Of a stretch of 64,000 nucleotides of DNA, positions 1 to 15,343 are shown in pieces (position 1 is the stretch's first letter; each line of letters opens with the position of its first letter). This DNA comes from an uncultured Bacteroidia bacterium (lineage in GTDB: Bacteria > Bacteroidota > Bacteroidia > Bacteroidales > UBA932). A model generated the notes under the pieces. That model did not search any database. It was not told where the DNA came from and saw nothing but the letters and a program-made list of their open reading frames with translations. The stretch spans positions 11,764-75,763 of the forward strand of contig CADAIT010000002.1 in assembly GCA_902788095.1 (NCBI GenBank). Direction: 5' to 3'. A program made the translations under genes and the position numbers.

Positions 1-203
1 AACAACTCTTCCAGGTTCAGCGCTTGAACGCCAAGGAACGCAAGGTCCTGGGCAAAGCGCGTGAAGACGTTAAAGTTGTTGAGCATGATGAAGCGGACGG
101 GGTAGCGGCAACGGAGGGGTTCACCATCCTCCATATCCCGCTTGATTTCCGTCAGCAGGTCATCATAGGACTCGAACTGAATGATTTTCTCTGTAGCGTC
201 CAT
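1..203 (-). CDS. pglZ: Probable BREX-4 PglZ phosphatase, N-terminal fragment (cut by window edge)
   Basis: Only 67 codons are in the window, starting with ATG at 203 and open at position 1. The start lies 3 bases after the brxC stop, so the genes are surely co-transcribed. The peptide begins MDATEKIIQFESYDDLLTEI and continues with YPVRFIMLNNF, a hydrophobic strand typical of a folded N-terminal domain. No catalytic motif is reached. The identification as PglZ (alkaline-phosphatase superfamily core protein of BREX) rests on gene order: type 4 BREX runs brxP, brxC/pglY, pglZ, brxL. It could be another BREX accessory gene. The open frame itself is certain, the name is an inference. Confidence 0.55.
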   Translation of the reverse strand, partial: MDATEKIIQFESYDDLLTEIKRDMEDGEPLRCRYPVRFIMLNNFNVFTRFAQDLAFLGVQALNLEEL

Positions 204-206
204 AGC

Positions 207-3200
207 TTACGATAGATAGTTGGAAATGAATTCGGCCACTTCCGGGTTGTTGTCGATGATGTCAAGCACAACTTTCTGCCAGAGAACGCCGGGCATATTG
301 GCTTCTTTGACAAGCGTCTTGGCCTTCTTGACGGCATCCGGGCTGACAGGCTTTGGAGCAGCAGGTGCAGGAGGCGTAAAGAACGGCGAAGCAGGCGTGC
401 TGGCAGGCTGTGTCGAAGTTCCGGCAGGAGATGATGGAGACGGCTGCGGTGCAGGAGCCGGATTCATCTGATCCCGCTTCATAATGTAGAAGTTGAGCAC
501 GCATTCGCGCACATCGGATTCCTTGCGGAAGGCAACCTCGGACTGAAGGTGCGAAATCTCTTCAAGCAGTTCATCCCACCAGTCTCGCTGAATCTTCACG
601 GTCTTGATGGAGCTGATGAAGTTCATAAAACCGTTTTCGTAGTTCTTTGGGCTGGAGACTAACTGGGCTATGTCGACCTTCTCGCTGTTGACAAGGCGGT
701 AGAGATTCTTAATCTTGGCAATGTCGGGATTCTGATCGGCCTCCAGTACTTCGATAAGAAGTTTGATGATCTCTGCACGCTTTTCATTGATATTGTCGCA
801 GTAGGTGAGTACCCAAAGCGGGTAACGGGACTTCTGCATACAGAACTCGTTGATACCCCAGCGGACGTTGCTAAGGCTCTTTACCTCCGGAATATCCTTG
901 ATAAACTGCAGCTGGAAGACCTCGTACAGTAACTGCGTCAGTTCGCTCTCCTCTTTGGAACCGAAACGGAGCATCAGTTTGTTGTTAGACTCAGAATGAC
1001 CGTCGTTCCACATTACGAAGAGGTCCTTGATCATATCGGCCAGCTTCTCGTCCGAAATCGGCTGTGAAATGGTCGTGACAAACAAGTCTGCCTTGTGCTT
1101 GCGCATTGCATAGGAGAAGGCGACCCAGTTGGCACGGCTGGGGAAGAATCCGAACGGAGGACGCATCAGAGGAGCAAACACCTCGGAGAGCGAGAACTTG
1201 TCCACATATTTTTTCTTGGCAGCCTCTATGCACTCGTCAACCTCGCTGCATACCTGGGCAATCCACGAGCCATTCGCAATGGCAGCAGGGGTCAGACGGC
1301 ATTCTTCATCAATGAGGTGATTGTCGTTTTCCTCGAAGATGTATTTTGCCGGCATATCAGAGCCGCTGAACTTGGTAAGTTTGTCGCGGGTCTGAGACTG
1401 GAGCATCTGGAGCACCAGGGCAGGGAAGTTCTTGTTAGCAAGGAAGGTGTTGGTTATGCCTCGGTAGGCCTTAACCGATTCCATACCCTTGGTGAATACC
1501 CTATGGCTGAATTTCTTATTGATGAGTGAGTATATGTTTCCGATGATGCCTTCACTGGTCTGCTCTCCATTGAAATAAAGAGTGAAAGAACCATTGATAA
1601 GGCGATTGCCCCACTTATTCACCAGCTGCTTGGCGGCCAGGTCACTTTCCTTCTCAATAGACTCCTGATAATGGCTCTTGGCAACATTATGGCTTGCGAG
1701 AAGGCTAATAAACTTAGACCGTGATTCGTTGGTGAATACCTCCGTCGGTATGATATGGATGGAGTTCAGGAATTCAGAAGAGAAGTCCTTTACTCGATTC
1801 TCGACAGCCCGGCGCTCTTCCTCTGTCACAGCCAGGTAAATGGCCACGTGGAGCGTATTCGGCTTTTCATTGGTGTATTTGTTCAGACGACTACGCAGCA
1901 CCGGCTCCGGGTCGGAGCAAGAGAAGAGCTGCGGCTCGCACTTGCGAATCAGGTAATCACCGACTACGAATAATTTGGTGAGGTTCGCCTTGACAGCAAA
2001 GTTATAGTTGAGGAAATCAAGCGCCGACTTGAACTGGGCCGCCACTTTCTCCTCTTCTTTCCGCAGTTCTGCCGGGTTAAGGGAGCTGACAGAAATCTTG
2101 AATTCGCCAAAGACGTCGCGGGCGATGATCTGATTGGTGTCCAGGAAGCGAAGGATGTCATCCATCTTCGGCTCCAGCCGGTCATCGGCGAATAGTCCAC
2201 GGATACTCTTCTCGTTAGGAGAGATGCGGGCAATCACATCCGTGCTCTTGGTTGCGAACTGAGTGGATAGGGTATTGAGCAGGAGAATTCCTTTATATAC
2301 GCGCACATAGTCGTCTCCGGCTTCCTCTACCCGGTGGATGTGATTCTGGAAGTTTGCGGTGAAGGCCCCACACTGAGGATTTGCCAGGAAACTCTCGAAG
2401 AAGAAGTCCCAGAGCCATTCCGCCGTAAGCAATGAGCGCTGCTCATACACATACTCGTCAGTAATGAATTTGCGGAAACCTTTCTTCTCGTCGTTCATAA
2501 AGTTGACAACGGAGCGATTGGCAGAGCCGACATAATCTGACAGCTTGGAGCAAAGGAATGCACTGTACGGGTGCATAGGGAAGAGGTTCGAGATTCCGGA
2601 ACGTTCTTCTTCAACGCCGCCCTCGCAAAGATAATCGATGAGTTCGTTGAGCCGGACAGTACGGTTGTAACGAAGCTGGTCGTATCCCACCTTGTCGGAC
2701 TTGATTTCGAATGTATGGCGCATCACGCGATACGTGGACACTTCGTCCATCATATAGCGTATGGTATCGAAGCGGTCATTCATCGTGCGGACATCGTCCT
2801 TCTTGCTGCCGCTGGCCACTTGGTCTTCTACTCGGTGAGAAATCAGGAACAGGAAGAGGTTGCAGCTCTGCGCCTTTTCGGCTATGTTCTGCAGAACGTT
2901 GATACGATCACTGCCGATGGCCTCCATGATGGAGGTAAACTCATCCCAGAAGATAATGAGACCGTCGGCAATTCCTTCGTCCTCGATGGCCTTTTCAACC
3001 TCGGCAAGCCACTCGCTGACGCTTTTAGATGTGAGGGTGACGCCCACGGTGTTGTAAAGCGCTTCCTCCAACTCCATATAGGTCTGGATGTCGTTGGCTT
3101 CAAGACGAGCGATCACTCTCTCCGGAGTAGGGGCGATGTCGTGCAGTTCATCGTGCTTATTGATGGCGTCCTGGGTGTAACTGTCGTGGTCCTTGACATA

Positions 3201-3680
3201 CTGAATGGCACTTTCAAAATCAGACTTCACCACGATATTACCATGACCGGCTGCCATCAGGGCGTTCTTTACTTCTCGCTGGAGAGAGAGGGAGAAGCGG
3301 CGCAGATCGTATGCGCCCTCGACACCCTTGATAACCACAGAGAAGAAATGCTTGTTTTTACGATAGTTAACGAGCTGGTTGCGCAGACTGGCGTCCTCGA
3401 TCTTCTTGGTGTAGAACTCAATGTCACCGAAACTGTCGCAGAGTAGATGCCGGACGACGGAACTGGCGTGGGATTTACCGGTTCCGAAGGTGCCCTGAAC
3501 CCAAATGCTTTTGCGCTTGGATTTGTCGGCGGAGGAGACTGCCGTAAGCGTACGCTGCAGCAGGTCGCAAAATTGGTGTGTGGGTATGAAGGATGCCCAG
3601 AGATTGTTGCTGGAATCTGCGGTAATGTCATATACCGGCAGGTAATCCTGCATTTGGATATAATCTGAATAACGTGCCAT
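207..3680 (-). CDS. brxC: BREX system P-loop ATPase BrxC/PglY
   Basis: This 1157-residue protein has an N-terminal P-loop NTPase with Walker A GTFGTGKS at residues 63-70 followed by H, the form seen in BrxC/PglY of BREX systems, and Walker B LIIFWDEF at 241-248. The remainder is a long helical region. Near the C-terminus there is a proline/alanine-rich linker (PAPAPQPSPSSPAG and on) before a last helical domain of about 50 residues. BrxC ATPases are essential core components of BREX phage-exclusion complexes in the cytoplasm. It lies 20 bases downstream of brxP and 3 bases upstream of the probable pglZ. A generic DUF499-like defence ATPase is the main alternative. The gene order makes BREX-4 the best reading. 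Confidence 0.8.
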   Translation of the reverse strand: MARYSDYIQMQDYLPVYDITADSSNNLWASFIPTHQFCDLLQRTLTAVSSADKSKRKSIWVQGTFGTGKSHASSVVRHLLCDSFGDIEFYTKKIEDASLRNQLVNYRKNKHFFSVVIKGVEGAYDLRRFSLSLQREVKNALMAAGHGNIVVKSDFESAIQYVKDHDSYTQDAINKHDELHDIAPTPERVIARLEANDIQTYMELEEALYNTVGVTLTSKSVSEWLAEVEKAIEDEGIADGLIIFWDEFTSIMEAIGSDRINVLQNIAEKAQSCNLFLFLISHRVEDQVASGSKKDDVRTMNDRFDTIRYMMDEVSTYRVMRHTFEIKSDKVGYDQLRYNRTVRLNELIDYLCEGGVEEERSGISNLFPMHPYSAFLCSKLSDYVGSANRSVVNFMNDEKKGFRKFITDEYVYEQRSLLTAEWLWDFFFESFLANPQCGAFTANFQNHIHRVEEAGDDYVRVYKGILLLNTLSTQFATKSTDVIARISPNEKSIRGLFADDRLEPKMDDILRFLDTNQIIARDVFGEFKISVSSLNPAELRKEEEKVAAQFKSALDFLNYNFAVKANLTKLFVVGDYLIRKCEPQLFSCSDPEPVLRSRLNKYTNEKPNTLHVAIYLAVTEEERRAVENRVKDFSSEFLNSIHIIPTEVFTNESRSKFISLLASHNVAKSHYQESIEKESDLAAKQLVNKWGNRLINGSFTLYFNGEQTSEGIIGNIYSLINKKFSHRVFTKGMESVKAYRGITNTFLANKNFPALVLQMLQSQTRDKLTKFSGSDMPAKYIFEENDNHLIDEECRLTPAAIANGSWIAQVCSEVDECIEAAKKKYVDKFSLSEVFAPLMRPPFGFFPSRANWVAFSYAMRKHKADLFVTTISQPISDEKLADMIKDLFVMWNDGHSESNNKLMLRFGSKEESELTQLLYEVFQLQFIKDIPEVKSLSNVRWGINEFCMQKSRYPLWVLTYCDNINEKRAEIIKLLIEVLEADQNPDIAKIKNLYRLVNSEKVDIAQLVSSPKNYENGFMNFISSIKTVKIQRDWWDELLEEISHLQSEVAFRKESDVRECVLNFYIMKRDQMNPAPAPQPSPSSPAGTSTQPASTPASPFFTPPAPAAPKPVSPDAVKKAKTLVKEANMPGVLWQKVVLDIIDNNPEVAEFISNYLS

Positions 3681-3700
3681 AGTTTCGTGTATCTGGGTGG

Positions 3701-6256
3701 TTAAAGCATCATCTTAATAATATCTGCGGAAGAGATGTCCTCTCGCAGATTAATGTTGTCGAGGCCCAAGTTGAGCTGAACATTCAATACGTGATTCCGC
3801 TCTTCCTGAAGGGTGCGAAGGATACGCTCAAATGCAGGACGATCTATACCAAACTGACGATAAATACCTTCATCTTGACCTTCCGAGAAAAACTCGGATA
3901 CTGTGAGGGAGCGACGATCTTTCCTCTCCGCATAAAGGTATAAGGAATAGGCGACGGCAGCGATGGAAACATCGTTGTATGTCTTTCTCATCACCGCCAA
4001 TTTTCCGCTTTCCTTAGCCAAAACGACAAGTAGCGGGTCACGGCTCAATGAACTCTCTTTGAATGTATTTATAAGTGAATTAAGAGGGTTGCTCAAAGTG
4101 CGGCCTTTGAGGTCAGGATATGAATCTTGGAGGATAACATCCATTTCCGCCCTCGAGTACATCCGCTCAAATCCAATAGCAGAATGGAACCAGTGACAAA
4201 TTTCAGAATTTGCGCACAGATTAATGAAGATAATCTCCCAAACCAGTTTGGGGTTTGTGGGATAAAGGGACATCAACTTCATACCAATTTCGGAAATCTC
4301 CTTGGTCTCTTCTTTGAGAATCTTAGCCTCTCGTAGCCAGTTAGTAAAAGGAGGAATCTGATAATCCATATTAAGGCCGTGCTCCTCGTTATCGAAGAAG
4401 GTCTCATAACTGTCAAAAAACTTGCGAAGCCAATTCTCGCGTAAGCCCATGCCGTCGTTGTAACGATTGATGCCGGATTTGGTCTGTTTCATATTGCTGG
4501 TGTTATTATTTGTCGGATTGTCGCCGTATGATGCGCTAACAGACGCTGCTGTAATGCAGCCCTTTTCATTGAAGTCAAGGCACTTGTAGCAGTGAACGCA
4601 TTTATTCTTATCCACAGATGCGATAGGAGTAACCGCCAGAGCGCCAGTAGGGCACTCGACCTCGCATACCTCGCAGTGGACGCAATATGTTGTTTTGAAG
4701 AGTATCTTCTTCAAACGGCTGATGAGAATAACGTCACCGCCAGTATCACCAAATTCAAAAGAAAGGGAGTCGTCTTTGAAATACTGTATCTTGAATGTGT
4801 AAACGACTTTGTTGTACTTCAGCTTCCCATCAATGATACTGTCATTTTGGGTGTATGTGTACGGACCGAGAATCTTAAGCCAGGTCAATAGACTCTCTTT
4901 CGGATTATGAAGAATAGCCTTGAATGTAGGATTGATGGAAACGATGTTGATCGTGGACTTCGTTTTCAAATCACGTCCGCCAGCTCTCATTTTCCATCGC
5001 CCAGTCTTAATGTAGTTTTGGACACCTTCAACATTGTTCGAATGAAGGCTATTCTCGATCCAGGAAATGAATGGTTTAATGGTCTCAGGATAGAGTTTCC
5101 CGCACAGGTCTTCACTCCAGCCAGAAGAATAGGGGCAAAGTATACACCCCACGCGAGACAGTCCTTTTCTATATGATTTATTGAAGGGGAGACCGTAGAG
5201 CAGAATGTATAGATAAATCTCGGTAGCGTTCCAATCAAGAATGGGACTGACGTTAATCATATTGTTATGCTTAACGTTTTTTCCAATCCGCGAACGACCC
5301 GAGCGGCTCACACTTTCTTCGGCACGAACTCCATCAAACAGTAGAACGTGAGGTTGTTTCTTGCCACCGTTAATCTCTTTTAGCTTCTTCGCCAGAGGAG
5401 CGGACTTCATTACGCTACAGCACCAACGATGGATGCGGCTCGGTGAGCCGAGGTTATCCCAATAATACATAATCGGCTGCTCGTTCCGGGCAACATAGAA
5501 AGCCAGTTTCGGGTATCGTTCGGTGTAGTATTTCTTTGTCTCCTCGTAGAGCTCAAGTGACGTGGGGAGCTCGTACCCAGTGTCAGAATAAATGACAGAA
5601 AAATCTGTGTTGGGGACTACACGAGCAACCAAATCAAGAAGAACCTGCGAATCCTTCCCGCCAGAGAATGAAACCACGAATTCATCTATCTTGCTGGCAA
5701 GCACGGCCCCCTTTCCTTGAGCATTTGCTTCGCTCTCGGGCATTATATCAAAGCTGTCGCAAGACTCTTTAACGACGACCTGCTTCTCTCCCGTTTTTTT
5801 CTCCAGGCGAGCTGCCAAGGCTTGGAAATCAATGTCGGGATTGGTCTCTGAAGCCTTCGTGATTCCCTTGTAACGTCGATAAATACTATTGATAAACTCC
5901 ATCGCCTCATGCTCTATTAAGAACATTGAGTCGTCATTCGCTTCGCGCAGAGCATCAATATCAATAGGGGTAAGGACAATATTCTTCCCTTCAGGAGTGA
6001 TAATGATTTCGGGATCATCATACAGGTTGCCACCTTTCACCTCCATCACAAGCACGCCACAATAGAAGTAGCGGCGGTCACAGGCCCACAGAAGGGGAGC
6101 CTCTGAGTGGGGATAGACCCAGCCCATATGATTTAATCCAAGGAGATCCAGCTCTTCGTAAAAAACTGGCCTCGGTGCTATGCCGAGGGCTTCTCCTGCC
6201 GATGACATCGTGAGTATCACTCCATTATGTGGTCTGTCCCAGACAATCTTGAACAT
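3701..6256 (-). CDS. brxP: BREX-4 BrxP: PAPS-reductase domain, 4Fe-4S centre and DUF4007 fused
   Basis: The start is set at ATG 6256 (MFKIVWDRPHNG), because a strong promoter places the transcript start near 6273; this gives 851 residues. After an N-terminal domain of about 190 residues comes the PAPS reductase/PP-loop signature SFSGGKDS (about 196-203), then YSDTGYELP and RIHRWCCSVMK. A cysteine pair CILCP follows. Further on is a ferredoxin-like set CVHCEVCEVECPTGAL plus CVHCYKCL (roughly residues 515-550). The last 250 or so residues (from NRYNDGMGLRENW) look like DUF4007. In type 4 BREX the usual methylase PglX is replaced by BrxP, a PAPS-reductase protein related to DndC of phosphorothioate modification. 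DNA sulfur chemistry is therefore plausible but unproven. It heads the cargo operon. Confidence 0.75.
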   Translation of the reverse strand: MFKIVWDRPHNGVILTMSSAGEALGIAPRPVFYEELDLLGLNHMGWVYPHSEAPLLWACDRRYFYCGVLVMEVKGGNLYDDPEIIITPEGKNIVLTPIDIDALREANDDSMFLIEHEAMEFINSIYRRYKGITKASETNPDIDFQALAARLEKKTGEKQVVVKESCDSFDIMPESEANAQGKGAVLASKIDEFVVSFSGGKDSQVLLDLVARVVPNTDFSVIYSDTGYELPTSLELYEETKKYYTERYPKLAFYVARNEQPIMYYWDNLGSPSRIHRWCCSVMKSAPLAKKLKEINGGKKQPHVLLFDGVRAEESVSRSGRSRIGKNVKHNNMINVSPILDWNATEIYLYILLYGLPFNKSYRKGLSRVGCILCPYSSGWSEDLCGKLYPETIKPFISWIENSLHSNNVEGVQNYIKTGRWKMRAGGRDLKTKSTINIVSINPTFKAILHNPKESLLTWLKILGPYTYTQNDSIIDGKLKYNKVVYTFKIQYFKDDSLSFEFGDTGGDVILISRLKKILFKTTYCVHCEVCEVECPTGALAVTPIASVDKNKCVHCYKCLDFNEKGCITAASVSASYGDNPTNNNTSNMKQTKSGINRYNDGMGLRENWLRKFFDSYETFFDNEEHGLNMDYQIPPFTNWLREAKILKEETKEISEIGMKLMSLYPTNPKLVWEIIFINLCANSEICHWFHSAIGFERMYSRAEMDVILQDSYPDLKGRTLSNPLNSLINTFKESSLSRDPLLVVLAKESGKLAVMRKTYNDVSIAAVAYSLYLYAERKDRRSLTVSEFFSEGQDEGIYRQFGIDRPAFERILRTLQEERNHVLNVQLNLGLDNINLREDISSADIIKMML

Positions 6257-6279
6257 AAAAATCCATTTATAACTGATGA

Positions 6280-6310
6280 CAAATATAGGCAAATATTTTG
6301 ATTTTACAAA
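6280..6310 (-). promoter_or_regulatory. Promoter of the BREX-4 cargo operon
   Basis: On the minus strand TTTG (plus 6307-6310), 19 bases, then TATATTTG (plus 6280-6287) matches the Bacteroidota -33/-7 consensus. The predicted transcript start is near 6273, about 17 bases before the brxP ATG at 6256. It shows that the cargo is transcribed independently of the element's replication genes. Confidence 0.7.
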
Positions 6311-6356: not shown

Positions 6357-6385
6357 AAAAATAAGCCCCGCCGGAGTGGTGGGGC
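6357..6385 (-). terminator. Intrinsic terminator after the DUF3987 gene
   Basis: On the minus strand GCCCCACC, loop ACTCC, GGCGGGGC (plus 6365-6385, one mispair) is followed by TTATTTTT. It lies 7 bases after the stop of the DUF3987 gene and separates the element's core genes from the BREX operon. Confidence 0.75.
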
Positions 6386-6391
6386 CTATCA

Positions 6392-8155
6392 TCAGGGCTT
6401 GCGATACTGACCGTGGAACGCTCGGACCAGTTTTCCTTCTTTACAAAAGGTCTGTATGTATCGTTCGGCTGATCGCTGAGGGATATTGAGTTTCTGCGCC
6501 AGGGAGAGGTAGGTCTCCCGACTGAAATCTGGCGGCAACTGGTCGTAGAATGCTTGCTTAGCTTCCGTCTTCTCCGAGAGAGCGGATACCGCCGTCGAGG
6601 TAGGCAGGGACTCGAATACTTTCGCCGTATGTTTGAGAAGGACCTGAACCATCGACAATGCGTTCTGGAAGTCGGTATCGGAGCAGAAGACAATCTGCTG
6701 CATGGGCACGTTCTCCATGAAGCGCAGCGCCGTCATGACCATCGCGATACGGTAGGTGATCAACCCGAGACGGCGGATAGAACCGACAATGTCAAGGCCG
6801 TAGAGCTGGGCGTATTCCGTCTGGACGGAGCGGAAGAAATCATTGAATTCTTGCTCCTGAGGCGTCGTGAAGCGGAAGGTCATAGGTTCGGCTGCCTGCA
6901 TCTGTGTATAGAGGTAGTCGAACCGTTTGCCCAGCTCGTCAAAGCATTCCTCCATCGTCTTGTCAGAAGAACCGGCGAAGACATCGTTCCATACCAGGGC
7001 TACGTCGATGGAATAGAAGATGAACCTGCTGAAAAGACCATTTTCGGCATCCGGGATCAGGCTGAGCACCTGACGCGGAGTGCCGGACAGAACAGCGGAA
7101 AGGCGTGGTATCTTCAACTCTACAAACTCCCGGTCCTTGCGCCGGTTGTAGCTGATGGATTCGTGGTGAAACGCCTTGCGAAGCGCATCAGAATAGTTTC
7201 CGTGCTCGGACTTGAACGTGGTTGCGAGCGTGTCGCCCTCGGTTTCAAACATCAGGCCCACACCGTCGTTGTCGTTAAGCGTCTGGCACATGGCCGTGGC
7301 GCTGCTATTCGCCGGCATGATGAGTGTCTTCATCGCAACTTCCTTGGGACGGGACACCCCCTCCTTGCGGCTGCTCTTGAGAAACGCTGTCATCTCCTCA
7401 TCGTAGGTTGCCTTGAGCCGAGCGTATTCCTCACGGAGTTTCTCGTGAATGGGCATTACGATGTTTTTACAGAGGGAGAGGCGACCCTTGCCAGCAGACG
7501 CCTGGGCGGTCACGAATAAATAAAGGTTCGCGTACACGCGCCTGCGATCATATACGCCAGAGAAGTTCGGCAGGCACGCCGATATTGCCGTGACGGTGCC
7601 AAGAATCAGCAGGTCGGCATCCATCGCCGAGTTGGAGAAGGATACGATGCGCTGAAGGAAATCCGGGAGGTCACCTTTCACAAGATCGGAGAACGTGGGC
7701 ATTGGCTCTGGCGGGTCTTCTGCCGCAACCGCCATTTCCGCCACTGGCGGAGTTGGCGGAGGTGTGACGGATTGGCGCTTGATTGATACGGATACACCAG
7801 CCTGTTGAGCCAGGTGGAAGAAAGTGCTGATGTTTACCTTTCCGCTTCCTGTAGCCATGCAGGAGGAGTACTTCTTATCGGCTTCCTGCTCGTCATAACC
7901 GGGATAGAAGCGGCTAAGCCGCTGGAAATAGGAACGTCCAGCCTCGCCCAACTCTCCGGCAAGGGCGAAGCCGAGATCCAGCCAGTCCTGGTAGTTGGCG
8001 GTAATATCGATGCCAGCCGCCTCGATGCGCTGGGTGACGATTTCAATGTCGCTATCCTGAAGGTTCTCCGGAACAGCGACCGGTACTGAAGGAGCGGACT
8101 CCCTCTGCTGAGGCTGGGGAGTCCACTCGGTTAAGTTGAATTTCTTCTTGGTCAT
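6392..8155 (-). CDS. PriCT-2 / DUF3987 primase-helicase-like protein
   Basis: This 587-residue protein is of the kind found in Bacteroidota integrative elements and prophages. Residues about 35-120 (DIEIVTQRIEAAGIDITANY to FFHLAQQAG) resemble a PriCT-2 primase C-terminal domain. The rest (about 150-500) is DUF3987, with a degenerate P-loop-like ASAGKGRLS near residue 215. The C-terminal 60 residues look like a winged helix (SRETYLSLAQKLNIPQRSAE). The start overlaps the BT4734-like gene by 4 bases (ATGA at 8152-8155), implying translational coupling, and the two probably act together in element replication. No catalytic residues can be assigned with certainty. The activity is inferred from family context. 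Confidence 0.75.
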   Translation of the reverse strand: MTKKKFNLTEWTPQPQQRESAPSVPVAVPENLQDSDIEIVTQRIEAAGIDITANYQDWLDLGFALAGELGEAGRSYFQRLSRFYPGYDEQEADKKYSSCMATGSGKVNISTFFHLAQQAGVSVSIKRQSVTPPPTPPVAEMAVAAEDPPEPMPTFSDLVKGDLPDFLQRIVSFSNSAMDADLLILGTVTAISACLPNFSGVYDRRRVYANLYLFVTAQASAGKGRLSLCKNIVMPIHEKLREEYARLKATYDEEMTAFLKSSRKEGVSRPKEVAMKTLIMPANSSATAMCQTLNDNDGVGLMFETEGDTLATTFKSEHGNYSDALRKAFHHESISYNRRKDREFVELKIPRLSAVLSGTPRQVLSLIPDAENGLFSRFIFYSIDVALVWNDVFAGSSDKTMEECFDELGKRFDYLYTQMQAAEPMTFRFTTPQEQEFNDFFRSVQTEYAQLYGLDIVGSIRRLGLITYRIAMVMTALRFMENVPMQQIVFCSDTDFQNALSMVQVLLKHTAKVFESLPTSTAVSALSEKTEAKQAFYDQLPPDFSRETYLSLAQKLNIPQRSAERYIQTFCKEGKLVRAFHGQYRKP

Positions 8156-9126
8156 TTTTCAAGGAGTTTTGGATAGATGTACGCGTCGGGATCGAACGGA
8201 AGATAGCAGGCACGTGATACGTTGCTGCAGTTGATGTCCACGTCAATCCGGTAAGTGTAGGCGACATAGGCCGCTATTGACTCGTAGAAGCTCTTATGGG
8301 TGCCTTCCGTAATGTCAATGGGTATCACCCACTTCAAGCCGTCTCCGGAAGGGCTACGGAACAATAATTGGGTCTCAAAGTACTCGTCCTGCAGCAAACG
8401 CTGGAACAATCCCTCAAGGTCAGTCACGTGATCAAAGTCGATGCATATCAACCCGGAGTGCGCTACCAGATCCCTGTCGTTGCGGGTAGCAAACGTGCCG
8501 GAGAAGGTGGCATAGTCGAATGCTGTTGACTTGAAGCGCTTAGCGGCCTTCTTGTCAGTCATGGCGCGGAGCCGTTCGGTTCGTTCCCTGGCGTAATCGC
8601 TGGTGATGTACTTGTAGATGTCCACCACGTTGGCGGTACGACACGGCTTAAGATTCTGTATGGGCGCACGGAAGAAGGAGAAAGGCCGGATGGATATGGT
8701 CTCTTCCTTAGGCTCCTCCGTGGGCAGATCTTTCAGCTGTGCATATTTCCGGACGGAGTAGAAACTGCGTTCCTCGCCGATATGCAAGAACATCTCCTGG
8801 TTGAGCGTATCCAGCAGTTCGTCACCGGTCTGATGGTAGTGCAACTCGGCGAAATCAAATGCGTCGCCTTCAGGAATGGCACCGTCAAGGTCTTTATGCA
8901 AGGCCCATTCGGCAGACATCGCTTTCCCGGGAACTTCCTTGTGTAGCCATACGTGGAGTGTAGGCTTGTCGCCGTTGAACGGATTGCGGGTAAGCCCGCA
9001 ATCACGTCCGACGACTTTGAGAACGACTTCTCCGGGATAGTAAATCCGGAGGATGTGAGCGTAGATACCCAGCCCGTAGTGGGTTTTGGCGAGGACAGCC
9101 TCGCGTGTCAGCTTACTGTTCTCCAT
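8152..9126 (-). CDS. BT4734-like (VirE N-terminal / AEP primase-like) protein
   Basis: The start is taken at ATG 9126 (MENSKLTREAVLAKTHYGLG), which overlaps the preceding HTH gene by 14 bases; an ATG at 9171 would lengthen it by 15 residues. The 324-residue protein contains the BT4734/BF3469 signature: LICIDFDHV, LLFRSPSGDGLKWVIP and SRACYLPFDPDAY. These are the acidic, SGxGxK and R/D positions of archaeo-eukaryotic-type primase folds. In Bacteroidota mobile elements this protein precedes a PriCT/DUF3987 protein, as here. The inferred role is primer synthesis for element replication. Enzymatic activity has not been shown by anything in the sequence beyond the motifs. Confidence 0.75.
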   Translation of the reverse strand: MENSKLTREAVLAKTHYGLGIYAHILRIYYPGEVVLKVVGRDCGLTRNPFNGDKPTLHVWLHKEVPGKAMSAEWALHKDLDGAIPEGDAFDFAELHYHQTGDELLDTLNQEMFLHIGEERSFYSVRKYAQLKDLPTEEPKEETISIRPFSFFRAPIQNLKPCRTANVVDIYKYITSDYARERTERLRAMTDKKAAKRFKSTAFDYATFSGTFATRNDRDLVAHSGLICIDFDHVTDLEGLFQRLLQDEYFETQLLFRSPSGDGLKWVIPIDITEGTHKSFYESIAAYVAYTYRIDVDINCSNVSRACYLPFDPDAYIYPKLLEK

Positions 9127-9493
9127 AGCGCTCGCGGATGTTAAACATGACGTAATTGCTGCGGAGGACACGCTCCAGGTCGCGCTTGAGATACCAGATC
9201 TTGTTGCCGATCTTCGTATAGGGGATTGTGCCGTTGCTGCGGAGAGTCTGGAGGGTGCGAGGGCTGATGTGCAGTTTCTGCATCACTACCTGGCCATCAA
9301 TCCAGTCTTCAAGGAACGCGCGCTCACATAGGCAGTCCAGCTGCTCGTCGGTAAGGTCATCGATGCTGATGATCTTGCGTTTTAGGAGTTCTTCCTGAAT
9401 GAACGGGCACTGGCGGAGGACCTTAGCGAAATCGTCTGTGGGGTCGGCTGCTATCGCAACCATGATGTCCCCAATCTTCTTGGGCTCGCTCAT
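9113..9493 (-). CDS. HTH (excisionase-like) DNA-binding protein
   Basis: This 126-residue protein has a C-terminal MerR/Xis-like helix-turn-helix (about residues 65-110: GQVVMQKLHISPRTLQTLRS, GTIPYTKIGNKIWYLKRDLE). The N-terminal 60 residues are acidic and helical without a recognised domain. It overlaps the upstream HTH gene by 4 bases (9490-9493) and the downstream primase-like gene by 14 bases, so it sits in one tightly packed transcript. Small HTH proteins of this type next to a tyrosine integrase usually regulate excision or transcription of the element. Which of the two HTH proteins here is the real excisionase cannot be told. Confidence 0.75.
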   Translation of the reverse strand: MSEPKKIGDIMVAIAADPTDDFAKVLRQCPFIQEELLKRKIISIDDLTDEQLDCLCERAFLEDWIDGQVVMQKLHISPRTLQTLRSNGTIPYTKIGNKIWYLKRDLERVLRSNYVMFNIRERYGEQ

Positions 9494-9858
9494 TTTCCCA
9501 GACGTTTGCGGTTGACGTAATCCTCGGCTGCTGCTGCCATCTCGGCATCAGTGTCCTGGCGACCGGAATTCATCCATTCCTCAATTTCGGAACGCTTGAA
9601 GCTGAGCTTCTTGCCTTTCTTGTAATAGGGGATGAGACCGTTCCGAATCCAGCCATAAACGGTTGGTGCGGCGGGATGGTCTGGCAAGAAAGCCTGAAGT
9701 TCCTTGACGTCCATCCACTTGCTGGTGGGTTCAGGCGCGGGTGCCTGCTGTTGTTTTTCGAGTAGCGACTCGAGGCGGTCGACCTTGTCGACGAGATATG
9801 CCAAGGCTTTTGGCATATCGTTGAACGAAAGTTCGTTCGTGTTAAAACTCGCTGCCAT
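9490..9858 (-). CDS. HTH (HTH_17, excisionase-like) protein
   Basis: This 122-residue protein starts with an N-terminal coiled-coil-like stretch (KALAYLVDKVDRLESLLEKQ, about 15-37). It then has a helix-turn-helix of the HTH_17/AlpA type (WMDVKELQAFLPDHPAAPTV, YGWIRNGLIPYYKKGKKLSF, about 48-95) and a short basic tail. Upstream (9859-10090) are two hairpins that could be its operator. It is first in the transcript that runs through the second HTH gene, the primase-like gene and the DUF3987 gene. Proteins of this form act as excisionases or directionality factors in Bacteroidota integrative elements, which is the inferred role. Confidence 0.75.
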   Translation of the reverse strand: MAASFNTNELSFNDMPKALAYLVDKVDRLESLLEKQQQAPAPEPTSKWMDVKELQAFLPDHPAAPTVYGWIRNGLIPYYKKGKKLSFKRSEIEEWMNSGRQDTDAEMAAAAEDYVNRKRLGK

Positions 9859-10090: not shown

Positions 10091-11623
10091 CTACTTCTTT
10101 TTGCTCAGGGCTACCATCTGCTGAACGTCCCTGTCGTACGTGGATGGTTTTTGCCATTTACATTTTATCGTCCTAAACTCACGGTCTCGGAATTGGAAGA
10201 ACACATCCTTGATGAAGGTTATCCACTCGTCTCGGGTCGGACGCATCGTGTACAGCTCTTTGTGCGTCAGGTAAAAGGTATGCTCTATGTGCTCGTTGGA
10301 TAGGTTTATCGTTGGAATCTGTTGAACATTGGGAGGCGTAGCATTATGCTCAACGAGATAGTCTATGTACGTCATCAGCCGGGTGAAATTCTCGTCACTC
10401 ATTATCTTCTCGTCTTGCAAATTGAACCCGGAGAAGTGAAGGAAACGTTTTCGGGCTTTCTGCTTGTTCTTATTCAGGTCTGACTTGGTCAGCTTCACAG
10501 GTATTGTCTTTCCGGCGCTACGGGAAAGCGGCGATGAAATGGGCGCGAAGGACTGGCTGATGTTTTGCTTGTATATCTCTTTCTGCTCCTTCAGGAACGC
10601 CAAAACCTGGGACGCCACTGAATCAGTGGATTTGCCCGAGATGCCCAGATCCGTCAATGTTCCAATCTCGCTTTCAACATAACGGAGTATTTCCCTGCCA
10701 TCCGACAATGCTATGATTTCGTCGCTTATCCTGTCTTTGATACTCTTGAACGAATAATCCTCATCGTCTATGGCGCTACTGTACAAGCTGTCTTCCACGA
10801 GGGAAATTGTGGGTTTGAGGGACGACAAAGAAGCGTGTTTACACGAATATAGCGGAGCAAGGAGGCTTGTGTCCGCTTCGTCCGCTATGACCGTCTGTTG
10901 AGCTGCATGGATGCTTTTCATCTCATCCACATAGGACTCCAGATGGTATTCCTTCGGGAACATTTCAAGCACATCGTTACAAAAGTCCCTGACGGGATCA
11001 ACGTCTTCCGGCTTGAGTACAGCATCGAACATAATGCCGATTTCGTAGTACAGCTTGCAGGCATATTGCCACAGGAATCTATAGATGCGATATACCATAT
11101 CATAAGCATCTTCATCTTCCGGTGGAACTTCGTCATATCGTATGTTTAGGGCCGGGTGTATCTTTTTATCGTTGATTTCGAAAGCAGCCCCAGATACGCG
11201 TTGGAGTTGCTTAAGAGTTTCTTTGACATCATCTCTCGTAAGATCATCATCTTCGCGGCTCGCGGCGTTCCTGAGTAACGTTTCTACGATACGATACCCT
11301 TCCCATATAATAATAGCATTGTAGTACCGTTCCACAGGAGTCCTGTTAATTGAATCCAATGGCAGCACGACGGGGAAGGTATCTCGTTTGATCGCAGTGT
11401 ACTTTGCCGCTGGTGTCATCCGCACCGGGATCTTCTTGGGAGCTGGCGGGAAGGATAGGGAAGTGTCACCCTGCAACTCGGCAGTTAACCACTCCTCGGC
11501 TTGCTCCAGGGAAGACGGAACATCATTGAAATGCTGTTTGACCAGATCGCTCAGATGCATAGTGACACTGCACGGTGGGTACAGGTCGCCTTCGTTGATC
11601 TTATGGTAGATGGTAATGTTCAT
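10091..11623 (-). CDS. Unknown 510-residue element protein
   Basis: I do not recognise this protein. It has no signal peptide or membrane segment and is soluble and charged. Acidic helical segments predominate in the first 300 residues. The C-terminal 130 residues are basic (TKSDLNKNKQKARKRFLHFS) and then end in a compact region (YMTRP-like, RDEWITFIKDVFFQFRDREF). It begins 2 bases after the integrase stop, so it is translated with the integrase. A conserved place directly after int in a Bacteroidota element suggests a role in recombination, replication control or transfer, but nothing in the sequence fixes it. Confidence 0.7.
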   Translation of the reverse strand: MNITIYHKINEGDLYPPCSVTMHLSDLVKQHFNDVPSSLEQAEEWLTAELQGDTSLSFPPAPKKIPVRMTPAAKYTAIKRDTFPVVLPLDSINRTPVERYYNAIIIWEGYRIVETLLRNAASREDDDLTRDDVKETLKQLQRVSGAAFEINDKKIHPALNIRYDEVPPEDEDAYDMVYRIYRFLWQYACKLYYEIGIMFDAVLKPEDVDPVRDFCNDVLEMFPKEYHLESYVDEMKSIHAAQQTVIADEADTSLLAPLYSCKHASLSSLKPTISLVEDSLYSSAIDDEDYSFKSIKDRISDEIIALSDGREILRYVESEIGTLTDLGISGKSTDSVASQVLAFLKEQKEIYKQNISQSFAPISSPLSRSAGKTIPVKLTKSDLNKNKQKARKRFLHFSGFNLQDEKIMSDENFTRLMTYIDYLVEHNATPPNVQQIPTINLSNEHIEHTFYLTHKELYTMRPTRDEWITFIKDVFFQFRDREFRTIKCKWQKPSTYDRDVQQMVALSKKK

Positions 11624-11625
11624 GC

Positions 11626-12741
11626 TTAGTCCTCCTTAATCTTTATTACTTCCGCTGCCTCACGTTTCTTCTTGTCTATGAGGTCGGCGTAGATTTGGGT
11701 TGTACTGACGTTCTTATGGGTAAGCATCTTGCTGACGGTGTAGATGTCGGCTCCGCCAGCAATGAGCTGCGTGGCGTAGGTATGGCGGAAGCAATGGAAG
11801 GTGATGTACTTGGTTATACCGGCCTGTTTGAGCCAGGGCTTCAGGTAAGTGTTGACCATGTTGCGGGTAAGACCTTTGAAAACAAGTCCGGATGAAGGTG
11901 GGCCGCATAGCGCAAGGGCCTCTTCGCTTATGGGGATTGTCGCTTCCGTGTCAGTCTTCTCGGTGCAGATTCGGATACACTTGCCGCCGTCCGGGAAATC
12001 TCTTACATCGTTCCAGGTTAGCGCGAGGATGTCACTGATTCTCAGACCGGTCAAGCAGCTGAATAGGGATGCTTCCCGCAGGACAGGAAACTCGCAGGGT
12101 GTATTGTAAAGTCGCCTCAATTCATCCATCGTAAGGTATTCTCGACGAGTCTCTTTCAGCTCTATCTTATCCAGATTGTCGTTGATGTTTTCTTTCAGGT
12201 AGCCTTCCTTGTAGGCTGATGCGAGAAAAGCCCGGAAGGTACTCCAATAGCCGGATGCTGAGTTCTGGGAGATCTGGAGTTTCTTACTATTAAGCCGCTT
12301 GGCGGTAAGCAGATACTCACGAAACCCGTTGCACAGCTCGACATTCAGATCCTTGAAGGCGCATTTGCCGTGGACGAACTTGTTGAAATGGTCGTAAGCG
12401 CCAAGCCATTTCGGCCCCTTGGTGAGCATCAGGGAGTAGAAGTATTCTACAGCATCCATCTTGGCTTTACTCTTGTCGATGAAGCCATATTGCTCGTTGA
12501 TAAGCGACAACTCTCGCTGGGCACGGATAGCCTCGGCTTGTTTCAGCTTGGTGGCGTTGATACGGCGCTCTTGTGCGGTACGCGGGCTCTTCATAATGTA
12601 GATGCCCAAGTATTCCCGCCGGCTCTCTTCTCCAGTGCGGGGGTTTTTGATGGCGGGGTAGAAGTCCAGGTAGAGGGATACCTTCCCGCTGGGGTATTCA
12701 CGTTTGCGAAGTGTTACTTTTGTGCTGCCCATAATAGTCAA
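11626..12741 (-). CDS. int: Tyrosine recombinase (integrase) of the element
   Basis: This 371-residue integrase has an N-terminal Arm-type domain (about 5-90), a SAM-like core-binding domain (about 95-190) and a C-terminal catalytic domain. The catalytic residues are visible: R234 in TGLRISD, H316 and R319 in HCFRH, H342 in LTHKN and the nucleophile Y351 in TTQIYADL. Translation starts at the ATG overlapping the stop of the upstream HTH gene (ATGA, 12738-12741); an internal ATG three codons later is also possible. It lies one gene from the junction with mnmE, so the attachment site is most likely the mnmE 3' end. It carries out integration and excision by strand exchange in the cytoplasm. Confidence 0.95.
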   Translation of the reverse strand: MTIMGSTKVTLRKREYPSGKVSLYLDFYPAIKNPRTGEESRREYLGIYIMKSPRTAQERRINATKLKQAEAIRAQRELSLINEQYGFIDKSKAKMDAVEYFYSLMLTKGPKWLGAYDHFNKFVHGKCAFKDLNVELCNGFREYLLTAKRLNSKKLQISQNSASGYWSTFRAFLASAYKEGYLKENINDNLDKIELKETRREYLTMDELRRLYNTPCEFPVLREASLFSCLTGLRISDILALTWNDVRDFPDGGKCIRICTEKTDTEATIPISEEALALCGPPSSGLVFKGLTRNMVNTYLKPWLKQAGITKYITFHCFRHTYATQLIAGGADIYTVSKMLTHKNVSTTQIYADLIDKKKREAAEVIKIKED

Positions 12742-13640
12742 CTACTTTTTCTGTTTGCGAGTATGTTGTCAACGTCTTCACGGATGAAATATACGAAATT
12801 TCCGCGTTTTATCCGAGGAACCTTGTGTTCTTTAAAGACACAGTAGAGGTGATTGCGGGAAAGTCCGTATTTATCAGTGATTTCCGCCATCGTGTAATAG
12901 AGGTCTTTCTCCACGTTCAGGCCCCTCGCTTCGTCCCAGTGGGTCTTGGAGATATAGGTGATGTTGTTCTTCTTCATTTTGGGAATCTTATGCTCCCGGA
13001 TGAAGTCACTGATGGACTCCGTACGCATTCCGGTAGCAGTACGGACCTCGTCGAAGGTGTACCACTCTGTGACGTGCGTATAGTCCTGATTGGAGAACAG
13101 GCGATGCATCACGTCCCGGTCATAGAAGCCGAGGGTACCAATCATGTGGGTCTTGATTCCGCGCTTTTTGAGCACGGAATAGAACCAGCTATAGGTGACA
13201 TCGTACTTTTCCATTACCTGTTCTCTTGTCATCCATTTGCCCAGATCGTCGCCAGGTCCCTGGATGGGGTTGCTTACATTGTAGTCTTCTGCTCGCTTGG
13301 CGGCCACTTTCTCCAAGTCTTCACGGGCAATGCGGACGGTCCGGAGCGAGAAGCGTTTCAGAGGGATGTCGTTCTCCTTGATAATCTTGTACAAGGTGTT
13401 CCGCGACATCTGGAGGAGTCGGGCGGCATCTGCAATGGTGAGGAAGTTTTTGTCGAGCAGGGCGAGACGTTCTCGCTCCCGGACATCATCCCCAAGATTC
13501 TGAAGCCGTTCATCGCGCAGCTTGTGCTTTTTGCTCAAGTTTGCGCATCTGGGGGAGCAGTAGCGAGTGACTGCGAAGTGGGATTCGAACTGGCATCCGC
13601 ACTGCTCACAAACTTTGAGGTAGAGTCTCTGCGTGTCCAT
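12738..13640 (-). CDS. Zinc-ribbon protein with several HTH modules, next to integrase
   Basis: This 300-residue protein opens with a zinc-finger-like motif (CEQCGCQF, then CSPRCAN, residues 12-34). At least three excisionase/MerR-like helix-turn-helix modules follow: FLTIADAARLLQMSRNTLYK (about 65), WMTREQVMEKYDVTYSWFYS (about 137), and YYTMAEITDKYGLSRNHLYC with a following wing (about 250). A weaker fourth is near 195 (YTFDEVRTATGMRTESISDF). Such tandem HTH arrays could contact several phased sites at once. It is the first gene inward from the junction, has its own promoter, and overlaps the integrase by 4 bases. It is inferred to be a directionality factor or repressor. Confidence 0.75.
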   Translation of the reverse strand: MDTQRLYLKVCEQCGCQFESHFAVTRYCSPRCANLSKKHKLRDERLQNLGDDVRERERLALLDKNFLTIADAARLLQMSRNTLYKIIKENDIPLKRFSLRTVRIAREDLEKVAAKRAEDYNVSNPIQGPGDDLGKWMTREQVMEKYDVTYSWFYSVLKKRGIKTHMIGTLGFYDRDVMHRLFSNQDYTHVTEWYTFDEVRTATGMRTESISDFIREHKIPKMKKNNITYISKTHWDEARGLNVEKDLYYTMAEITDKYGLSRNHLYCVFKEHKVPRIKRGNFVYFIREDVDNILANRKSS

Positions 13641-13903: not shown

Positions 13904-13916
13904 ATTGATAATCAAT
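13904..13916. other. Candidate attachment-site region at the mnmE 3' end
   Basis: ATTGAT-A-ATCAAT (13904-13916) is a palindrome whose last base is the final base of the mnmE stop codon. Element sequence ends here and the mnmE coding end begins. The true crossover could instead lie within the last 20 bases of mnmE. Without the other junction the duplicated core cannot be defined. Confidence 0.35.
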
Positions 13917-15343
13917 TACTTTCCGATGCAATGCTTCGAGAAGATGGAGTGCAGAATGGTGTCGGGGTCCAGGAGGCCTGTGCCGAGAATGGTGTTGATG
14001 GCGGAGAGGCTGCGGCGGAGGTCTTCGGCCACGAGGTCGGTAGGGATGTTGCGGGTGAGGGAAGTGCGCACATCGTGGAGCGCAGCGGCGGCATTTGTGA
14101 GGGCTTCGAGGTGGCGGGTATTCGTAATGAACGTGGAATTTTCGTTGGGCACAAGGTCTTTCTCGGCCTCATACATGGCTTGTTTGAGCAGGTCGAGTCC
14201 TTTTTTCTCTTTCACAGCCACACTTATCGTAACACATTCATCGCCAACAGATAAAACATAATCGTTAGCGATAATAACATTTTTGTTAACCTCGTTTTCA
14301 GCACATTTGTCTGCCTTGTTCAAGAGCAGAATCAGCTTCTGCGATGCAAAATCCACCCGCTCGCAGAGCTGCTTCAAATTGGACAGAAGTTCATCCTCCT
14401 GCGCACTGCCGTCCAGCACGGCAATGACCAGCTGCGCCTCAGAAATTTTCCGGAATGTCCGGTCAATGCCCAAGGCTTCCACCGTATCGGCAGTGCTGCG
14501 GATGCCGGCGGTATCGATCATGCGGAAAAGGAGGCCGCCGATATTCAAGCATTCCTCAATGGTATCGCGCGTAGTACCCTCTGTATCCGAAACAATGGCG
14601 CGCTCCTCGCCGAGCAGAGCATTGAGCAGCGTACTTTTCCCGGCATTGACAGGGCCGACAATGACGGCCGGAATGCCGTTTTTGATGAGATTGCCCTGCC
14701 GGAACGAAGCCGCCAGTCCTTCGACGTGCGAGAGCGTGTTGTCCACCAGGGTAAGCAACTGGTCCCTGTTGGCAAACTCAACCTCCTCCTCGCTGAAATC
14801 CAGTTCAAGTTCCAGCAGGGACGCCATTTCCAGAAGTTCCTCACGAAGCAGCGCAAGTTCCTCTGAAACACCGCCTCGCAGTTGGTTCATAGCGACGCGA
14901 TGAGCGGCAGAAGAAGTCGAAGCAATGACATCCGCCACGGCCTCGGCCTGGGCAAGGTCCATTTTACCATTCAGAAAGGCGCGTCGGGTGAACTCGCCGG
15001 GCTCGGCAAAACGGGCGCCGGCCGCCATGAGCAGCTCAACCAATTTCGCCACAATGTAAGCCGATGCATGGGTGGAAATCTCTACGCTGTCCTCGCCGGT
15101 ATAGCTGTGCGGAGCCCGGAACACAGAAACGAGAACCTGGTCCAGAACACCTTTTCCAGACTCATGAACTTCTCCGTAATGAATGGTATAAGCCTTTGCA
15201 TCAGAGATGGTTCCGGACTTTAACGAAACCACTGCATCAACTATCCGGAAACACTCCGGACCGCTCAGCCGCACAATGGAAATTGCTCCGGTCCCAGGGG
15301 TGGTGGCCGGAGCGACAATGGTTTCCTGATAGAGATTCTTCAC
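13916..15343 (-). CDS. mnmE: tRNA modification GTPase MnmE
   Basis: MnmE with MnmG makes the 5-carboxymethylaminomethyl group on wobble uridine of tRNA. The protein has the N-terminal formyl-THF-binding domain, the G1 loop GPVNAGKST, the DTAGIR switch and NKADK (G4), and ends with the invariant CIGK, so the C-terminal catalytic cysteine is present. No ATG lies near the family's usual start. The best start is GTG at 15343 (VKNLYQETIVAPATTPGTGA), giving 475 residues, slightly longer than usual. That GTG lies inside a dispersed GTCATTCTGAACGAAG repeat. Rho ends 42 bases upstream, so rho-mnmE is probably one transcript. The 3' end is the boundary of the integrative element. Confidence 0.95.
   Translation of the reverse strand: MKNLYQETIVAPATTPGTGAISIVRLSGPECFRIVDAVVSLKSGTISDAKAYTIHYGEVHESGKGVLDQVLVSVFRAPHSYTGEDSVEISTHASAYIVAKLVELLMAAGARFAEPGEFTRRAFLNGKMDLAQAEAVADVIASTSSAAHRVAMNQLRGGVSEELALLREELLEMASLLELELDFSEEEVEFANRDQLLTLVDNTLSHVEGLAASFRQGNLIKNGIPAVIVGPVNAGKSTLLNALLGEERAIVSDTEGTTRDTIEECLNIGGLLFRMIDTAGIRSTADTVEALGIDRTFRKISEAQLVIAVLDGSAQEDELLSNLKQLCERVDFASQKLILLLNKADKCAENEVNKNVIIANDYVLSVGDECVTISVAVKEKKGLDLLKQAMYEAEKDLVPNENSTFITNTRHLEALTNAAAALHDVRTSLTRNIPTDLVAEDLRRSLSAINTILGTGLLDPDTILHSIFSKHCIGK

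Follow-up and report, generated by a model that had tools for sequence, protein, structure and literature searches.

A BREX type 4 operon with an exchanged BrxP interior and a trailing Argonaute gene, on an element beside mnmE

Gene content and setting of the operon

The stretch of DNA analysed here (the window) comprises 64,000 nucleotides (nt) from an uncultured, gut-type Bacteroidia bacterium, positions 11,764 to 75,763 of contig CADAIT010000002.1 (G000:C2:11764-75763). Its left end carries the beginning of a bacteriophage exclusion (BREX) operon, which is located on the minus strand and exits the window at that end; the later genes lie in the adjoining part of the contig, where positions carry the prefix L001. 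In the order of transcription, the seven genes are brxP, brxC, pglZ, brxL and those for a 949-amino-acid (aa) protein, an Argonaute and a 445-aa protein, with intergenic gaps of 20, 3, 3, 4, 10 and 56 nt (Table 1). A sequence-only reading of the window had proposed a type 4 BREX operon. The brxPCZL part of that proposal holds, but beyond these four genes the operon runs into three non-BREX genes, including the Argonaute gene, that had not been foreseen. This report concerns the operon as a whole and, in particular, the interior of its BrxP protein.

As far as sequence goes, the operon is established as a BREX type 4 system, and the BREX part of the locus is of an already known kind. The predicted gene order P-C-Z-L is borne out by matches of all four genes to type-aware profiles. 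BrxP is matched over nearly its full length by the PADLOC BrxP profile (837 bits) and also by Pfam PAPS_reduct (116 bits), and it carries the motifs SGGKDS and CVHCEVCEVECP. BrxC is matched by the PADLOC BrxC-PglY profile (455 bits) and has the P-loop GTFGTGKS. The gene running left of position 1 encodes PglZ, as had been anticipated: the part left of the window matches the type 4 model BREX_PglZ_4 of NCBIfam (NF033445; 566 bits, cut-off 140) and the PADLOC PglZ profile (257 bits), and it contains the alkaline-phosphatase-type motifs DALGY, TIPS, SDHG and HGGCTPEE. A further BREX gene, brxL, is present beyond pglZ, and its product, which also has a P-loop, is recognised by NCBIfam TIGR02688 (438 bits, cut-off 329), PADLOC BrxL (658 bits) and Pfam BrxL_ATPase (371 bits). 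We take the motifs listed for BrxP and PglZ, and the P-loops, to be the relevant active-site-type motifs. The Lon-like protease that had been expected in BrxL is not found, since this 477-aa protein lacks a Lon domain, as is usual for type 4. Both this short BrxL and the fusion architecture of BrxP agree with the type 4 arrangement described in passages of PMC12839542.

Two general models contribute little to this identification. The NCBIfam model BREX_BrxC gives just 15.5 bits against a cut-off of 400, and the Pfam PglZ model PF08665 has no match anywhere in the genome, so the type 4 calls rest on the other profiles. When the seven operon proteins were compared with PADLOC, no methyltransferase profile was matched except for a weak one on BrxP itself (15 bits).

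Taken as a whole, the locus has its nearest counterpart in CANQBA010000043.1, from isolate Lapin-005 (L039, L158), which we call the sister element. It bears on the state of pglZ, whose start at window position 203 (minus strand) lies 3 nt past the end of brxC. Because the assembly gap of 23 N at contig positions 11741-11763, immediately left of the window, falls within pglZ, the left PglZ piece has no N-terminus. A broken pglZ can be ruled out: the N-terminus is lost to the gap, and the sister locus has an open 810-aa pglZ whose product is 98% identical over the 744 shared residues.

The proposed Bacteroidota-type promoter TTTG-N19-TATATTTG is present as an exact motif in front of brxP. Motifs of this type with spacers of 19-21 nt occur five times on both strands of 75.7 kb, against 0.39 expected under a first-order Markov model, and the simulated chance of one in the local 135-nt AT-rich strand is 0.0018. 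The insulating terminator, also proposed earlier, is likewise supported by a hairpin upstream of the promoter motif, which has a U-rich 3ˊ side and runs into UUAUUUUU. This hairpin was found by folding and is not among the results of a simple terminator scan, probably because of a stem mismatch. One correction concerns the start of brxP, which the open reading frame (ORF) list had placed at a TTG at position 6292. Judged by where the motif lies and by homologues, the likely start is the ATG at 6256; the TTG precedes the expected transcript start. The ATG is consistent with the start of the sister BrxP.

Upstream of the operon lie the backbone genes of an apparent integrative element. Of the earlier proposal of such an element, the integrase and primase module beside mnmE stands, whereas the left end could not be located: the search returned only chance-like repeats of at most 14 nt and no att-like copy of the mnmE end in L001, where the contig ends. 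A genome of the same genus (G013) carries a related element at the same site, with an integrase 58%, a BT4734-like protein 48% and a primase 45% identical to those here. Type II restriction and methyltransferase genes occupy its cargo position, together with the gene of a related Argonaute (35%). Beyond the BREX operon, on the plus strand, the present contig carries the gene for a 256-aa accessory protein and a Vat-type acetyltransferase gene before it ends. The latter (L001:73-723, plus strand, at the contig end) belongs to the Vat streptogramin A acetyltransferase family: it scores 308 bits on the general Vat model, whose cut-off is 300, and does not reach the thresholds of the named alleles that were listed. 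Within the genus, 5 of 91 genomes, this one included, have a match to the 256-aa protein.

Table 1. Coordinates of the BREX operon, the exchanged part of brxP and the element genes; positions refer to the window unless prefixed with L001
Feature	Position	Strand	Remarks
445-aa protein	L001:1630-2967	-	last gene of operon
Argonaute, 722 aa	L001:3024-5192	-	behind 949-aa gene
949-aa protein	L001:5203-8052	-	behind brxL
brxL	L001:8057-9490	-	477 aa
pglZ, 5ˊ end	1-203	-	continues left of window to contig 9494 (L001), across 23-N gap
brxC (pglY)	207-3680	-	1157-aa P-loop protein, Walker A and B type motifs
brxP	3701-6256	-	851 aa; PAPS-reductase domain, ferredoxin-type cysteines, C-terminal DUF4007-like region
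Exchanged brxP interior	3932-5659	-	residues ~200-775; most divergent ~376-515 and 551-750
Promoter motif TTTG-N19-TATATTTG of BREX operon	6280-6310	-	Bacteroidota type, exact match
Terminator-like hairpin	6360-6390	-	behind primase gene, before BREX operon; -19.2 kcal/mol, z -4.4
PriCT_2 + DUF3987 protein (primase type)	6392-8155	-	element backbone
BT4734-like_N protein	8152-9171	-	element backbone
Two HTH_17 proteins	9113-9858	-	element backbone
510-aa protein	10091-11623	-	element backbone; no Pfam match; homologues in G013 (26%) and G902 (98%) elements
Tyrosine integrase	11626-12741	-	of element
Helix-turn-helix (HTH) protein	12738-13640	-	of element
mnmE	13916-15328	-	element abuts mnmE 3ˊ end

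Exchange of the BrxP interior

The present element and its sister are near-identical from the 510-aa backbone gene through the 445-aa gene, with the exception of the brxP interior. In bins of 150 nt, identity is 94-100% in the backbone (90% in one edge bin) and 89-99% in brxC. The proteins BrxC, PglZ and BrxL are 99%, 98% and 100% identical, respectively, and the 949-aa protein, the Argonaute and the 445-aa protein 98%, 94% and 90% (the last over 400 residues). The two BrxP proteins are only 59% identical overall, and the present BrxP is closer to that of another system, L151 (62%), although the L151 BrxC is only 49% identical. Between window positions 3901 and 6000, the brxP bins fall to 41-68% (one reaches 79%); the bins bordering this stretch are at 84% and 78%, and the next bin out on each side is at 96%. 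The PAPS-reductase domain (residues 191-375) is 65% identical. Of the four-fold degenerate sites, 114 of 202 in brxP and 97 of 495 in brxC are different (bins summed). Within brxP, differences are at 15/44 in the first bin, at 17/29, 17/28 and 19/26 in the bins starting at residues 101, 201 and 301, and at 8/17 in the last bin. This high divergence at four-fold sites argues for replacement by a distant homologue rather than for point mutation.

A type 4 PglZ above the cut-off is found in 2 of 150 near genomes, 10 of 398 from the family, 6 of 393 from the order and 3 of 395 from the phylum, where the present genome is counted in every sample and the samples overlap. Fourteen further BREX-4 loci were compared (L128, L140, L147-L154 and L163-L166), and the order P-C-Z-L is kept in every one that is readable for gene order. 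ORFs of 97-243 aa separate brxP from brxC in L147, L149 and L163, and brxC from pglZ in L128; brxC is split into two ORFs in L165 and is short in L149. Weaker PglZ-BrxL loci are also present (L119-L121).

Comparisons of BrxP used 13 systems with a full brxP. L154 was omitted as too diverged, and L140 and L166, which are cut off, carry no brxP; L165 was left out for brxC only, on account of its two ORFs, and L149 was retained despite its short brxC ORF. BrxL similarity is highest in four pairs: the present system with L158 (the sister), L152 with L165, L151 with L153, and L148 with L164. In these pairs, the BrxP ends (residues 1-200 and 751-851) are 82, 87, 81 and 83% identical, respectively, versus 37, 41, 39 and 45% for the interior (376-750). 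A tree of residues 201-790 instead groups the present BrxP with that of L151 (support 100/99) and L158 with L164 (100/100), and the approximately unbiased (AU) test on this tree rejects a grouping of the present BrxP with L158 (p 4.16e-52). Conversely, the present BrxP and that of L151 are 63% identical in the ends and 57% in the interior, and for L158 and L164, in bins of 50 residues, identity is 56-68% towards the termini and 41-68% in most of the inner bins (31% in one). These are the patterns expected if alleles are shared between different systems.

In Mantel tests against BrxL over all 78 pairs, the BrxP ends give r 0.89 (0/5000 permutations) and the interior r 0.36 (22/5000), and the rank correlation of the ends is 0.71 with BrxL and 0.91 with PglZ. 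Among the 32 pairs whose BrxL is at least 60% identical, the rank correlation with BrxL is 0.67 for the ends and -0.41 for the interior. At the level of sequence, these comparisons demonstrate a swap of the BrxP interior between otherwise related systems, with the BrxP ends staying with the rest of the operon.

Several observations weigh against so simple a picture. The tree of whole-length BrxP does not reject a grouping of the present protein with its sister (p 0.368). Over the 78 pairs, the interior still has a rank correlation of 0.57 with BrxL and 0.71 with PglZ; taken with the values above, the interior therefore retains some common history, with a much looser tie among near relatives. 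BrxP is the sole outlier in the present pair and in L152-L165 (the BrxC comparison excludes the latter), but L151-L153 and L148-L164 also vary in the middle of PglZ (50-62%) and at the end of BrxC (46-67%). Furthermore, the limits of the BrxP segments were picked after inspection of the identity profiles, and all of the sequences are assemblies, several of them metagenomic.

The Argonaute and the genes behind brxL

The Argonaute was compared with the best 80 of 126 relatives, from which L046 was dropped because it has no frame above 250 aa, to leave 79 loci; for L069, a frame of only 270 aa was taken. Genes in these loci were labelled by blastp clusters with one annotated representative each, and at least 3 kb of upstream sequence was available in 69 of the 79. 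The guide-pocket residues Y419, K423, Q434 and K461 are present in 79 of the 80 aligned rows (the present protein and the 79 loci), and one row has a gap. Apart from one gapped row, all rows have G at position 482 (79 of the 80); at position 548, 78 have Y and one has F. We take these positions to be the first and third D of the catalytic DEDX tetrad. The alignment predicts that this is a long Argonaute that has lost its catalytic residues and has an intact YK-type 5ˊ guide-binding motif in its MID domain. Its best matches among solved structures are AF1318, presumably the same protein as AfAgo, and EcAgo.

Relatives of this Argonaute are frequently accompanied by other defence genes or by element genes. 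Type I or III restriction-modification genes are among the six nearest upstream ORFs of the same-strand run in 39 of the 79 loci (within the nearest two in 28). A cluster for a protein with deaminase and HATPase_c_4 domains, as annotated for one member, is found in 10 of the 79 (including L108:7783-9279, plus strand). Homologues of the primase, BT4734-like protein or integrase of the element occur in 45 of the 79, mnmE is present in nine, and seven loci have an integrase and a primase with only ORFs shorter than 150 aa separating the primase from the Argonaute. The element genes in these loci somewhat favour the view that the Argonaute and BREX are mere neighbours on a shared mobile element and act independently, against which stands the single transcription unit that the two appear to share here, as judged by the gaps.

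A closer relationship, in which the Argonaute, 949-aa and 445-aa proteins are working BREX parts and the Argonaute guides PglZ and BrxL to invader DNA, would fit their position on the same strand behind brxL, the last three gaps of the operon (4, 10 and 56 nt) and their retention with brxC, pglZ and brxL in the sister at 90-100% protein identity. It is an improbable reading, because brxC, pglZ and brxL are near the Argonaute only in the sister, with no match in the other 78 of the 79 loci, where L117 has just a partial PAPS-reductase-like match to brxP. Sequence past brxL is visible in 11 of the 14 further BREX-4 loci (0.5 kb only in L150), and three loci end before it. Neither the 949-aa protein nor the Argonaute has a match in any of the 14 fetched stretches, and as conserved parts of BREX-4 both were rejected at 0 of the 11 readable loci, for those stretches only. 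The 445-aa and 949-aa proteins were also rejected as standing partners of the Argonaute family, since they accompany it in one of the 79 loci, the sister. As far as seen, the Argonaute is best described as a putative add-on to BREX-4, and the Argonaute-bearing operon as an arrangement that is new within the searched literature but probably accessory.

Other BREX-4 loci also carry genes in this place, and the position behind brxL looks like an accessory slot. In L154, a class-V aminotransferase of the cysteine-desulfurase type follows brxL. The operon of L147, from the same family, extends into genes for a PbeA-like helicase and a PbeC/LmuB-like ATPase (L147:689-4627, minus strand), a possible restriction module attached to BREX-4. 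In the sister, an AbiH gene (L039:14711-15565, plus strand; Pfam 162 bits) and a 302-aa ORF without a match lie behind the homologue of the 445-aa gene, and the present element has other genes there.

The C-terminal half of the 949-aa protein (~409-870) has relatives of ~480-590 aa in six near genomes (seven of 150 including its own), in three of which they lie beside genes judged by eye to encode ribosomal proteins; no match was found among plasmids. The relatives belong to a Bacteroidota family represented by L122-L127, and the one member scanned, from L122, gave sub-threshold matches resembling sigma-70 region 4 and a helicase-associated domain. Apart from the protein itself, the 150 near genomes contain no relative of the 445-aa protein. 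For the Argonaute, 118 pattern matches in viral contigs include no relative, and matches in plasmids are limited to three distant records.

Possible meaning of the exchange and comparison with known systems

The locus is probably best explained as a BREX-4 operon on an mnmE-adjacent integrative element, with an exchanged BrxP interior that would set the target and three trailing genes that would be accessory. According to the roles expected from the literature, BrxP with BrxC would place sulfur marks on host DNA, and DNA lacking them would be acted on by PglZ and BrxL, together with BrxC. The exchanged block covers the PAPS-reductase domain, the stretch that follows and the greater part of the DUF4007-like region. 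This interior would serve target recognition and set the DNA sequence that is marked, and the conserved ends would provide contacts to BrxC or other partners. In type I restriction-modification, HsdS target domains get exchanged, and swapping the BrxP interior might re-target the BREX system in the same way. The 949-aa protein, the nuclease-dead Argonaute with its guide pocket and the 445-aa protein would form an accessory defence layer in the same transcription unit, outside BREX proper.

The placement of the divergence is consistent with a role in recognition. The PADLOC BrxP profile of the DUF4007-like part matches residues ~598-849 (851-aa numbering). The most divergent stretch at 551-750 overlaps the N-terminal two thirds of this region, and that at 376-515 follows the PAPS-reductase domain. 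According to passages of PMC12839542, DUF4007 comprises three DNA-binding domains that form a BrxA-like set, and BrxP has an additional alpha+beta domain; passages of PMC10853773 suggest that DndE takes part in the target specificity of Dnd systems. Two points count against this step. The Pfam DUF4007 matches are sub-threshold (21.9 and 22.9 versus 27 bits), and the passage from interior exchange to sequence specificity is one that we infer. Two structure predictions made without an alignment had mean pLDDT (predicted local distance difference test) values of 46 and 36 and were put to no further use. The fuller proposal, in which BrxP is the specificity subunit, its interior is recombined from a shared allele pool and the same transcript adds a guide-loaded, nuclease-dead Argonaute layer, has about an even chance of being correct.

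A rather unlikely alternative is that the BrxP interior diversifies to evade phage inhibitors (anti-BREX proteins) and leaves the DNA motif unchanged. Exchange of surfaces attacked by inhibitors is known for defence proteins in general, the exchanged block includes a PAPS-reductase domain that need not read sequence, and PglZ too varies in two of the four close pairs. However, PglZ and BrxL are unexchanged in the present pair, and divergence is greatest beyond the PAPS-reductase domain and in the N-terminal two thirds of the DUF4007-like part, a DNA-binding unit according to passages of PMC12839542. A metagenome assembly chimera is very improbable as the source of the difference in brxP: both elements are known from genome assemblies, and the record of the sister bears the label Oscillospiraceae although nearly all other Argonaute relatives found are Bacteroidota, but each brxP is an uninterrupted frame of 850-851 codons, identity shifts within the gene and three further genome pairs show the same pattern.

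We consider the block exchange within brxP, together with the specificity hypothesis that results from it, to be the main new point. Among the passages on BREX-4 that were available, none states that BrxP sets specificity or what decides the marked sequences, and the near-identical present and sister elements offer a natural test. If specificity does reside in BrxP as a module open to exchange, the phosphorothioate motifs of gut bacteria could be predicted from a single gene.

With known BREX type 4 systems (brxPCZL), the operon shares the gene order, the four families and the short BrxL, as well as a BrxP with the PAPS-reductase, ferredoxin-type and DUF4007-like parts described in passages of PMC12839542. 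It differs in its three added genes, including the Argonaute gene, in having no cysteine desulfurase gene and in the exchange of the BrxP interior between systems. Resemblance to the phosphorothioation systems Ssp and Dnd is seen in matches of BrxP to SspD (52 bits) and DndC (32 bits) and of BrxC to SspC (81 bits). These scores are far under those of the BREX profiles, and PglZ and BrxL are present here.

For the Argonaute, the nearest comparison is with a long-B subgroup that, according to passages of PMC10620215, is linked to the VirE-N protein og_54, usually encoded two to eight genes upstream. The present protein resembles this subgroup as described there in its full length, lost catalytic positions, YK-type pocket and upstream BT4734-like gene. 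It differs in that the BT4734-like gene here resembles element backbone rather than a partner, and no gene was recognised as the nuclease, Sir2 or membrane partner. BT4734-like_N is presumably the current name of VirE_N; in that case, og_54 would belong to the element itself, and the relevant pairing would be that of the Argonaute with defence cargo. This suggests that the listed partner og_54 is element backbone, and that VirE-N-associated long-B Argonautes travel on a class of element that often pairs Argonautes with modification-based defences. A link between Argonautes and restriction is partly known, because passages of PMC6299218 name Argonaute operons that contain HsdS and type III restriction proteins. 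The word BREX is absent from the main text of that paper, neither argonaute nor PIWI appears in the main text of PMC12839542, and a literature search for BREX, argonaute and BrxP together, with supplements not covered, gave no match.

A further parallel is type I restriction-modification, where one subunit is likewise exchanged and the others stay. This comparison concerns only how the systems may work, since no HsdS family is among the listed BrxP matches and the expected mark is backbone sulfur rather than methyl. If BrxP does determine specificity, recombination of the region after the PAPS-reductase domain and of the first two thirds of the DUF4007-like region would be the phosphorothioation counterpart of HsdS exchange.

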